From positions 496,001 to 560,000 of the forward strand of contig NZ_JABMJK010000002.1 of NCBI RefSeq assembly GCF_013376005.1: 64,000 bases of DNA. Direction: 5' to 3'. Shown in pieces: positions 52,600-54,875 of this stretch. The translations under genes and the position numbers were made by a program. The notes under the pieces were generated by a model, which was not told the origin of the DNA, made no database searches, and saw only the letters and a list, made by a program, of their open reading frames with translations. Within the stretch, counting starts at the first letter, position 1; the number at the start of each line of letters is the position of its first letter. This DNA comes from Duganella sp. SG902 (GTDB taxonomy: Bacteria > Pseudomonadota > Gammaproteobacteria > Burkholderiales > Burkholderiaceae_D).

Positions 52600-53607
52600 A
52601 TGAGCGACAACCTCGACCAGAACACCCCGCCGGCAGCGCCGGCCCCGCAGCCGGCCAAGGCCGCCCCGTCCAATTGGGAGCGCGAGGTGCTGGAAAAACT
52701 GGTGTTTGCCACGCTGAAAGAACAAAAGGCCTCACGCCGCTGGGGGATTTTCTTCAAGGCCACCACCCTGCTGGTGGTGGTGTTCGCGCTGAGCGCCTAC
52801 TTCGATTTCAGCTGGACCGGCTCGGACGGCGAGACGCTGGGCCGGCATACCGCCCTGATCGAGGTCGAGGGTTCGATCGAATCCGAGGGCAGCGGCTCGG
52901 CCGCGGTGGTGATTCCGGCGCTGAACAAGGCGTTTTCCGACAGCGGTTCGGTGGCCGTGGTGCTGCACATCAATAGCCCGGGCGGCAGTCCGGTGCAGGC
53001 CGGCATGATCGTCGACGAGATGATCCGCCTGCGCAAGGGCTATCCGGGCAAGCCGCTGTACGTGGTGGTGGACGAGATTTGCGCTTCCGGCTGCTATTAC
53101 ATCGCGGCCGGCGCCGACCGCATCTATGTCAACAAGGCCAGCATCATCGGCTCGATCGGCGTGCTGATGGATGGCTTCGGCTTTACCGGCGTGATGGAAA
53201 AGGTCGGGGTCGAGCGGCGGCTGTTGACCGCCGGCGAAAACAAGGGTTTCATGGACCCGTTCAGCCCGCTGACGGAAAAGCATAAGCAGCATGCGCAAGC
53301 CATGCTCAACGAAATCCACCAGCAATTCATCCAGGTGGTGCGCAACGGCCGCGGCAAGCGCCTGAAGGAAACGCCGGACATGTTCTCGGGCCTGTTCTGG
53401 ACCGGCGCCAAGTCGATCGACCTCGGCCTGGCGGACGCCTACGGCACGGTGGACAGCGTGGCGCGCGACGTCGTCAAGGCCGAAGATATCGTCGATTACA
53501 CCCAGCATGAGGGCTTGCCGGAGCGCGTGCTGAAGAAATTTGGCGCCGCCATGGGCGCCGGCGCCATGAAGTCGGCGGTCGACACGGTCAAACCCAGCTT
53601 GCGTTAG
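52600..53607 (+). CDS. sppA: S49-family signal peptide peptidase (SppA-like)
   Basis: A 335-residue membrane-bound serine protease of the short SppA type. It has a cytoplasmic head rich in Pro/Ala, one membrane helix (FFKATTLLVVVFALSAYFDF, about residues 50-69), then the ClpP-like domain. LHINSPGGSPVQAG is the oxyanion region, the nucleophile Ser is in EICASGCYYIAAGAD and the general-base Lys in VNKASIIGSIGV. It degrades leftover signal peptides in the membrane. Confidence 0.93.
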   Translation: MSDNLDQNTPPAAPAPQPAKAAPSNWEREVLEKLVFATLKEQKASRRWGIFFKATTLLVVVFALSAYFDFSWTGSDGETLGRHTALIEVEGSIESEGSGSAAVVIPALNKAFSDSGSVAVVLHINSPGGSPVQAGMIVDEMIRLRKGYPGKPLYVVVDEICASGCYYIAAGADRIYVNKASIIGSIGVLMDGFGFTGVMEKVGVERRLLTAGENKGFMDPFSPLTEKHKQHAQAMLNEIHQQFIQVVRNGRGKRLKETPDMFSGLFWTGAKSIDLGLADAYGTVDSVARDVVKAEDIVDYTQHEGLPERVLKKFGAAMGAGAMKSAVDTVKPSLR

Positions 53608-53666
53608 GCACGGTTGTAGGATGACTGGCCGACCGATTAATATTATCAATACAGTCTTATTTTCGC

Positions 53667-53694
53667 TTGCGGATCCCCTTTGGTGAACTATATT
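53667..53694 (+). promoter_or_regulatory. Sigma-70 promoter of the candidate small RNA
   Basis: -35 TTGCGG (53667-53672), a 16-base spacer and -10 TATATT (53689-53694). The predicted start near 53701 coincides with the first base of the first RNA stem. Confidence 0.65.
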
Positions 53695-53700
53695 GGTGTT

Positions 53701-53866
53701 GTAGTTCTTACCTAGGGGGGCCAACATCATTACATTCCAGTTGTGCAGTACAACGTAGAGAACTACTCAACCGCATCGTTGATGCGGAGTAGAGTGAATT
53801 TCGATTCCTCATGCAAGTCCCTTTGTGGGGCTGAAAACAGCGGCGCCATGCCGCTGTTTTCTTTTG
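53701..53866 (+). ncRNA. Candidate structured small RNA, no family recognised
   Basis: About 166 bases between a good promoter and a strong terminator, with no reading frame of note. Stems, all read directly: GTAGTTCT (53701-53708) with AGAACTAC (53759-53766), enclosing GTTGT/ACAAC (53740-53754); CCGCATC-gtt-GATGCGG (53771-53787), extendable by CTACT/AGTAG (53763-53767 with 53788-53792); GAGtGAAT-TTCG-ATTCCTC (53792-53810); AGTCCC-tttgt-GGGGCT (53816-53832); and the terminator hairpin. The first stem and the extension of the second use the same bases (53763-53766), so the RNA could switch. A G6 run (53715-53720) lies in the first loop. It does not look like 6S, tmRNA, SRP or RNase P RNA. Confidence 0.65.
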
Positions 53867-54035
53867 TAAAGCCCCCCGCGTCCAGCCAGGCGAGAAAGCC
53901 CGCTTGCCGCGCGGCGCGCCACGCGGTCGCGGCATGGTCGAGTGGCGCGTGGCCGTGGCTGCAGCGCTCCAGCAGCAAGTCGGTACGGAGATTGGCGGCC
54001 TGGGCTTGCGCCACTGGGTTGGCTATGTGGGGCAT
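53763..54035 (-). CDS. Hypothetical 90-residue protein, partly antisense to the small RNA
   Basis: An ORF with a reasonable ribosome-binding site (AGGA, 6 bases before the ATG). The first 60 residues (MPHIANPVAQAQAANLRTDLLLERCSH...) look like a real helical protein. The last 30 are read through the complement of the small-RNA terminator and hairpins and look non-protein-like. Function unknown. It may be a gene whose 3' end has run into the RNA locus, or a chance ORF. Confidence 0.45.
   Translation of the reverse strand: MPHIANPVAQAQAANLRTDLLLERCSHGHAPLDHAATAWRAARQAGFLAWLDAGGFTKENSGMAPLFSAPQRDLHEESKFTLLRINDAVE
53834..53866 (+). terminator. Intrinsic terminator of the candidate small RNA
   Basis: AAAACAGCGGC (53834-53844) pairs perfectly with GCCGCTGTTTT (53850-53860) around GCCAT, followed by CTTTTG. 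It is an 11-bp stem; its A/T arms would also allow leftward termination. Confidence 0.88.
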
Positions 54036-54158
54036 GATTGTCCTGCTGAGATTTCCTAGCGCAGTAGGCGAATTCCTAATGCTGTTTCAGTCTAACAATA
54101 GAATCGGAGCATGGTTTGATATGCGTCAATGAAGCGCGCATCCTGTAAAATCGCGGCC

Positions 54159-54875
54159 ATGAGCAAATTATCCCTGGACCGCATCCTGCAATCGCAGGGC
54201 TATGGCACCCGCAAATTCTGCCGCACCCTGATCGAGGACGGCGAAGTCACCATCGACGGCGTGGTGCACGACAACTATAAAGAAACCCTGGAAACCGACG
54301 GGCTGGTGTTCCGCCTGTTTGACGAGGACGTGGTGTACCGTGAACACGTCTACATCGCCCTGCATAAACCCGCCAACTACGAATGTTCGCGCAAGCCCAG
54401 CCATCATCCGGGCGTGCTGACCCTGCTGGCCGAGGAGCTGACCTGGCGCGATGTGCAGCCGGTCGGCCGGCTCGATCACGACACCACTGGCATGCTGCTG
54501 ATGTCGGACGATGGCGCGTTTATCCATGCACAATCGTCGCCGAAGCGTCACGTTCCGAAGATTTACCAAGCCACCACGGCCGAGCCTGTCACCGACGAGC
54601 TGATCGCGCAAATGCTGGCCGGCGTCCAGTTGCACGACGAGCCGGCGCCGCTGGCGGCGCAAACCTGCGTCAAGCGCGGCGAGCACCAGCTGGAAATCGT
54701 GCTGGAGCAGGGGAAATATCACCAGGTCAAGCGCATGCTGGCGGCGGCCGGCAACCACTGCGCGGCCTTGCACCGCTCGGCCATCGGCAAGCTGGAGCTG
54801 GCTGCGCTGGATCTGAACGAGGGCGAATGGTGCTACCTCACTCCTGAACAACTCGCTTTGCTGACACCCGAATGA
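54159..54875 (+). CDS. RsuA-family pseudouridine synthase
   Basis: A 238-residue enzyme. The S4 domain (LDRILQSQGYGTRKFCRTLIEDGEVTIDG) precedes the catalytic domain with PVGRLDHDTTGMLLMSDDG (catalytic Asp) and the C-terminal EGKYHQVKRML-type motif, here EQGKYHQVKRMLAAAGNH. The start at 54159 matches the family; a frame from 54129 is less likely. TAAAAT (54146-54151) lies 7 bases before the ATG, so the mRNA may be leaderless. RsuA (16S U516) or RluE/RluF-like activity cannot be separated here. It overlaps the FAH-family gene by 4 bases. Confidence 0.88.
   Translation: MSKLSLDRILQSQGYGTRKFCRTLIEDGEVTIDGVVHDNYKETLETDGLVFRLFDEDVVYREHVYIALHKPANYECSRKPSHHPGVLTLLAEELTWRDVQPVGRLDHDTTGMLLMSDDGAFIHAQSSPKRHVPKIYQATTAEPVTDELIAQMLAGVQLHDEPAPLAAQTCVKRGEHQLEIVLEQGKYHQVKRMLAAAGNHCAALHRSAIGKLELAALDLNEGEWCYLTPEQLALLTPE

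Follow-up and report, generated by a model that had tools for sequence, protein, structure and literature searches.

The window analysed here is a stretch of 64,000 nucleotides from Duganella sp. SG902, and between its sppA gene and a gene for a pseudouridine synthase lies a segment for which a free-standing structured RNA with its own promoter, alternative pairings and a terminator had been predicted from the letters of the DNA. This raises the question whether the segment is a genuine RNA gene, whether it belongs to a known family, and what the RNA might do. On balance, we lean towards reading it as a stand-alone gene, carried by much of the Oxalobacteraceae, for a structured non-coding RNA with a predicted length of about 166 nt; a sigma-70 type promoter of its own likely drives transcription, and the product likely acts in trans as a regulatory small RNA. 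The sequence of the window places the predicted RNA at 53701-53866 on the plus strand, between the two genes, and the features of the locus are as follows.

52600-53607, plus strand: upstream neighbour sppA, peptidase family S49 (PF01343, E 3.4e-37)
53667-53694, plus strand: predicted promoter, with a -35 element TTGCGG at 53667-53672, a 16-base spacer and a -10 element TATATT at 53689-53694
53701-53866, plus strand: structured RNA (predicted transcript), with a fold z-score of -5.0, a conserved family and covariation
53701-53766, plus strand: 5' arm closed by helix P1, 53701-53708 pairing with 53759-53766 (GUAGUUCU/AGAACUAC)
53713-53720, plus strand: purine-rich element, UAGGGGGG in the window and AAGGRGG in many relatives
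53771-53787, plus strand: hairpin P2, CCGCAUC GUU GAUGCGG
53792-53810, plus strand: hairpin P3 with a UUCG loop, GAG-U-GAAU UUCG AUUC-CUC
53816-53832, plus strand: hairpin P4, with 95.9% of cells paired in the genus
53833-53867, plus strand: intrinsic terminator, with its stem at 53833-53861 and a short T run behind it
54159-54875, plus strand: downstream neighbour, pseudouridine synthase (PF00849, E 2.8e-19)

The predicted chain of hairpins can be read directly from the sequence, in which P1 to P4 and the terminator are all present. The segment GTAGTTCT, which starts at 53701, is able to pair with AGAACTAC at 53759-53766 over 8 bp, and the inner part of the 5' arm that is enclosed in this way is variable. 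The whole RNA folds at -63.6 kcal/mol compared with a mean of -43.7 for dinucleotide shuffles (z -5.0), a value reached by 0 of 200 shuffles. Two details of the original prediction need adjustment. The terminator hairpin is there, with a stem of 12-13 bp (13 pairs by scan) instead of the 11 bp first given, and the T run behind it is short and interrupted. Likewise, the TTCG tetraloop is found in P3 of the window, but the loop varies in relatives.

The predicted promoter, TTGCGG and TATATT separated by 16 bases, is also present. Taken alone it is weak, with 8 of 12 consensus bases against a scanner cut-off of 9, and a scan of 53000-54500 at this cut-off found no promoter. The layout TTG-N3-16-TATAnT is conserved: among 43 diverse loci, a simple promoter picker returned a spacer of 16 bases 39 times, with one plainly misplaced pick (L119), whereas 100 dinucleotide shuffles averaged 3.3 such loci and never exceeded 9. 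In the remaining four loci the picked spacer was 17 bases (L127), 18 bases (L077), 18 bases at the wrong place (L007) or absent (L121). The window promoter is therefore credible, because its layout is conserved across loci. Among 21 loci of the genus, identity amounts to 72% in the RNA, 67% in the 40 bases before it, 61% in the preceding 20 and 44% in the 40 before those, and over the 150 bases that follow the aligned RNA it is 37%. Further upstream, about 60 bases ahead of the predicted start, a conserved GATTAAYATTATCAAT was noticed (53637-53660 in the window). It is flanked by GACTGG and a CCAGTC-like sequence and, in many genus loci, followed by T-rich sequence, and it may serve to terminate sppA or to bind a regulator.

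Within the genus the RNA is almost always found. A DNA search of 60 genomes, including the genome of the window, matched 34 of them: this genome itself and 33 of the 35 other genus members. None of the 24 genomes from other families was matched. Genus sequences were also used to build a covariance model (R1), which matched 54 of 55 genus genomes, again counting that of the window; the single exception, G414, gave no model match with laxer filters either. In all 30 genus loci that were fetched, the RNA lies between sppA and the synthase gene in identical orientation. For structure counts 25 of the 30 loci were aligned (alignment A1); L010 and L013 were dropped as near copies, L018 and L020 since the regular expression missed their terminator, and L028 for a long insertion in the arm. 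The consensus structure pairs in 98.2% of cells of these 25 sequences, compared with 42-57% for slid structures, and double changes occur at 6 of 38 pairs (shuffle mean 2.1, equalled by 1 of 500 shuffles). P2 and P3 are paired in 99.3% and 100% of cells in the genus. P1 is paired in 96.0% of cells in the 25 sequences and in 96.7% in a set of 31 distinct sequences, and its double changes fall at the innermost pair only; P1 is thus supported by conservation and not by covariation. The insertion in L028 (L028:1306-1606) is made of repeated TATGCAGT/CATGCAGT units, and therefore the 5' arm tolerates large inserts.

It was further predicted that the RNA adopts two mutually exclusive functional folds, with bases 53763-53766 pairing either in P1 or with 53789-53792. 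The alternative helix is complete in the window but is not conserved in the 25 genus sequences: two of its four pairs are broken in 11 of them and a third in 5, 73% of its cells pair, and no double change is seen, compared with 96% of cells paired for its competitor P1. The structure that was counted for this comparison included P2. As a whole it pairs in 88.8% of cells versus 21-48% for slid versions, its only double changes are those in P2, and between 42 and 281 of 500 shuffles attained its whole-structure measures. Judged by these alignments, the switch is rejected as a conserved feature.

Beyond the genus, model R1 matched 220 of 392 genomes of the family at E<=1e-3, a count that includes some matches to the terminator alone; 216 of the 220 matched genomes have a single match. 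We inspected 29 matched genomes from 23 other genera (one to four per genus). The hairpin chain is present in 25 of them, among them L081, which is without P2, and the other four match in the terminator only. These terminator-only calls (behind L086, L088, L089 and L090/L091) were made by eye, and for L090/L091 from the match positions. The RNA is thus assigned to 21 of 44 genera of the family, and not to 24, because terminator-only matches removed three genera. Carriers include Duganella, Janthinobacterium, Massilia, Collimonas, Noviherbaspirillum and Undibacterium. In two loci, L081 and L123, P3, P4 and the terminator are kept and P2 is apparently lost.

Checking relatives for compensatory changes had been proposed with the original prediction, and such changes are found family-wide. 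Of the 28 loci L062-L089, 18 were aligned with MAFFT without a structure model (alignment A4); it omits L062-L066 and L069, which have the bulged P3 of the genus type, L081 with its lost P2, and L086, L088 and L089 with their terminator-only match. From these 18 distant members RNAalifold found P2, P3 and the terminator unaided; of their 24 pairs, 19 show double changes. Counting was done on 31 pairs, that is, the RNAalifold pairs together with P4 and two more pairs that were added by hand. Double changes occur at 22 of the 31 pairs and in 55 cells (shuffle means 12.5 and 18.6), neither value being reached by any of 500 shuffles; with slid structures, the count of doubly changed pairs is 9-15. 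In the distant members P2 is paired in 93.3% of cells with double changes at 4 of 6 pairs, P3 in 91.5% with double changes at 6 of 8, and the terminator has double changes at 9 of 12 pairs; P4 likewise has compensatory changes and is the weakest helix, with 68.7% of cells paired. The turnover of letters is best illustrated by P3, in which GAGNGAAU...AUUCCUC of the genus is replaced by GAGAAGUC...GACUUCUC, GGGAAGCC...GGCUUCCC and others in distant genera.

An order-wide search of 399 genomes matched 10 genomes of the family and, weakly, 11 of other families (E 2.2e-4 to 9.7e-4), compared with a nominal 0.4 expected by chance. Ten of these 11 outside matches (L182-L191) were inspected; they show a strong terminator, with P2 and P3 poor or absent, and were not counted as members. 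Neither sppA nor the synthase gene was found near these ten.

The distant regions in A4 had been found by a model that includes the structure, whereas a second survey, anchored on sppA, collects loci without reference to structure. Named genomes were scanned with an SppA alignment, the best 80 loci were kept, and all were searched with both RNA models, R1 and R2. Shortly 3' of sppA and on its strand, the RNA was found in 29 loci among the 41 ranked highest (L092-L132), 28 of them by R2 at E<=1e-3 and one, L110, with E-values of 0.0012 by R2 and 3e-10 by R1. In the 39 lower-ranked sppA loci (L133-L171; Burkholderia, Pandoraea, Ralstonia, Rhodocyclaceae and others) it was found in none; the division of the 80 loci into 41 and 39 by rank was our choice. 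Among the 12 misses, the contig ends 19 bases (L098) or 269 bases (L118) past sppA in two cases, and the others are seven Herbaspirillum loci, L129 (a weak R2 match, E 0.14), L131 and Paucimonas (L132). Since seven Herbaspirillum loci are without it, the RNA is dispensable for the family.

The association with sppA is close. The gene adjoins the RNA in 30/30 genus loci and in 23/28 loci of other genera, whereas the synthase gene lies within about 1.5 kb in 30/30 genus loci versus 5/28 of the others. In two loci from two genera (L075 and L077) the RNA is kept with no sppA in place; there it follows genes for a Rieske protein and a HAD hydrolase, which precede sppA in the window. On the minus strand a convergent open reading frame of 90 codons (53763-54035), for which Pfam gave no match, terminates within the RNA. 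The upstream part of this frame (around FLAWLDAGGF) is conserved in many genus loci and its end is variable; in L016, L017 and L019 the frame runs into stops inside the RNA. It is mostly missing in L002 and L004, in which the RNA is intact. The RNA is thus independent of its neighbours, because it is kept where sppA is absent in place and where the convergent frame is mostly missing, and in this sense the prediction of a free-standing element holds.

No Rfam 15 family accounts for the RNA, in line with the original prediction. At gathering scores, Rfam 15 matched only a tRNA elsewhere in the whole window, and it gave no match at threshold in ten loci of other genera. Below threshold the matches are weak and unrelated, and the best one differs by member: ctRNA_p42d for the window (18.4 of 50 bits), STnc250 for L072 (24.5 of 42, E 0.006), SpF25 for L113 (22.7 of 48) and STnc380 for L009 (23 of 60, E 0.015). 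6S RNA (RF00013) was considered and rejected. It is likewise structured, of similar length (model of 187 positions) and has one match in the genome, but it has no match at this locus, and the 6S RNA of the genome was found at G000:C2:413308-413488 with 63.5 bits. The shape of 6S RNA is a single long rod with a central bubble, unlike the chain of separate hairpins of the present RNA.

The RNA shares with CsrB/RsmZ-type sponges a purine-rich, GGA-like element in a stem-closed arm, which is found in part of the family. Such sponges carry several GGA motifs in hairpin loops, whereas inspection of the alignment showed a single purine-rich element here, with GGA missing in about half of the genus sequences; by these features the RNA does not fit the class. 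Nor does it fit a riboswitch or leader, given its own terminator and a downstream gene that changes between genera. The RNA also resembles the Hfq- or ProQ-associated trans-encoded small RNAs of Proteobacteria, with which it shares a predicted promoter of its own, an intrinsic terminator, an intergenic position and one match in 216/220 genomes. It differs from them in being predicted to be mostly paired, in its short and interrupted T run and in having no Rfam family at threshold. In enteric Hfq RNAs the T run is typically neither short nor interrupted.

A candidate structured RNA of the same order, the Burkholderiales-1 motif, was listed in a table row without Rfam accession (Weinberg and others 2010, PMC2864571). 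Our comparison with this motif is by its table row, and the two could be identical; beyond the family, the present RNA has terminator-like matches only. As far as it was covered, the literature found, including PMC6337395, PMC7011215 and PMC2864571, does not describe the present RNA, which may have been mentioned in a table before. In the literature found on small RNAs in Duganella, Janthinobacterium, Massilia, Collimonas and their kin, as far as it was covered, there were Herbaspirillum studies only. It therefore appears that the RNA family is new, with Burkholderiales-1 compared by its table row only, and that its kind, a stand-alone structured small RNA, is known.

The 5' arm differs in behaviour from the hairpins behind it. 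From Duganella to Janthinobacterium its letters are largely kept in the segments GUAGUUC, AAGGRGG, CGAUAUA and GUUGUCAG. For the inner arm a hand-chosen alignment (A6; 32 rows, 31 distinct sequences) was used: the 31 distinct sequences give 86.7% paired cells and double changes at 9 pairs (4.4 on average in shuffles), and the same structure slid by one column has 10 such pairs. RNAalifold predicted P1 alone on this alignment. These comparative data lend the inner arm structure modest support. Of 42 loci, 23 have the motif GG[AG]GG within their first 60 bases, against 5.2 on average and at most 12 in shuffles, a comparison that overstates independence because many of the 42 loci are closely related. 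The motif starts mostly at +15 to +19, also in Undibacterium (L119, L127) and Collimonas (L113), and the purine-rich element is missing in several carriers, e.g. Noviherbaspirillum L122 and L125.

The purine-rich element resembles a Shine-Dalgarno sequence. A small peptide translated behind it was considered for the genus and rejected, since ATG, GTG or TTG is absent 3-12 bases after the element in 25/25 genus sequences. In distant genera short frames from TTG or ATA are visible by eye. RNA lengths of all three classes modulo 3 occur. An open G-rich seed is unsupported as well: the element is predicted to be mostly paired in ensemble folding, with a mean unpaired probability of 0.07-0.58 that is below the mean of its own RNA in 13 of 25 sequences. 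Overall, 61-72% of the bases are paired in model ensembles. On average, the 5' arm pairs more strongly with the anti-Shine-Dalgarno end than shuffles do (mean z -1.2 over 42 loci); this pairing is absent in some loci and not significant in the window (z -1.07, 13 of 100 shuffles). A search of 15 genus genomes with two patterns returned 18 exact 12-base complements of the arm, of which 13 are the RNA gene itself and five lie elsewhere, two of these (G002 and G009) in related sequence. No exact 12-base target is common to more than two of the 15 genomes, in a search that shorter seeds with G-U pairs escape.

By sequence and conservation, the locus has its own promoter and its own terminator in an intergenic region, as is the case for the gene of a trans-encoded small RNA. 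The genome encodes Hfq and a ProQ-domain protein. Together with the data on the arm, the lack of a start codon, the pairing and the target search, these genes are the reason why a trans-acting or protein-binding small RNA is predicted as the most likely identity of the product. P2 to P4 and the terminator, in which the letters turn over and the shape is kept, would then form a stable body for an RNA-binding protein, and the effector role, contact with a target RNA or a target protein, would fall to the 5' arm.

Within this range, the RNA might mainly bind and hold a protein, as 6S and CsrB RNAs do, with the hairpin chain and the inner 5' arm as the protein site. We regard this as possible, if clearly the weaker proposal: stem letters that change freely while the shape stays, the high share of paired bases, which takes in most of the conserved 5' element, and an exact 12-base search without a target shared by more than two genomes all fit such a role, but there is no repeated motif of the kind found in CsrB-type RNAs, and about half of the genus sequences have no GGA in the purine-rich element. 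It is tempting to speculate about a Shine-Dalgarno mimic without a message, in which an untranslated, stem-presented AAGGRGG at about +15, found from Duganella to Undibacterium and Collimonas, would bind the 16S anti-Shine-Dalgarno end or CU-rich regulatory RNAs once a partner opens the arm. This is a long shot; if true, it would make the RNA a free-standing regulator of the ribosome or of translation initiation.

Three further explanations do without a separate trans-acting RNA. The segment could be a structured 3' end of the sppA transcript that acts in cis by terminating or stabilising the sppA mRNA, with no gene of its own, and its position next to sppA, in the same direction in every fetched genus locus and also adjacent in most loci of other genera, closed by a strong terminator, is what this would predict. 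A promoter of fixed layout stands ahead of the RNA in most loci, however, the RNA directly follows the Rieske gene with no sppA between in L075 and L077, and Herbaspirillum has sppA without the RNA, which makes such a 3' end unlikely. That the RNA serves the downstream gene as a leader or riboswitch-like element is very improbable: the pseudouridine synthase gene comes next and shares the direction in the genus, but the RNA ends at its own terminator about 300 bases ahead of that gene in the window, a convergent frame often intervenes, and the synthase gene is missing from 23/28 loci of other genera. Least credible of all is that the conservation stems from a protein frame on either strand and not from an RNA. 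The 90-residue minus-strand frame does overlap the RNA and has a conserved upstream part in many genus loci, yet it is mostly missing or interrupted in the five loci named above, its match is lost in further loci in which the RNA is intact, the RNA lengths fall into all three classes modulo 3, and the double changes follow base pairs.

Judged from its fold, covariation, conserved promoter layout and fixed locus, the RNA family is real. With it, Duganella, Janthinobacterium, Massilia, Collimonas and their kin gain an RNA family that is strongly supported by covariation. Because it is conserved in shape, stays in place even without sppA and carries a purine-rich element that no start codon follows, it offers a concrete gene for study, and the loci and alignments assembled here would allow its annotation across hundreds of genomes.
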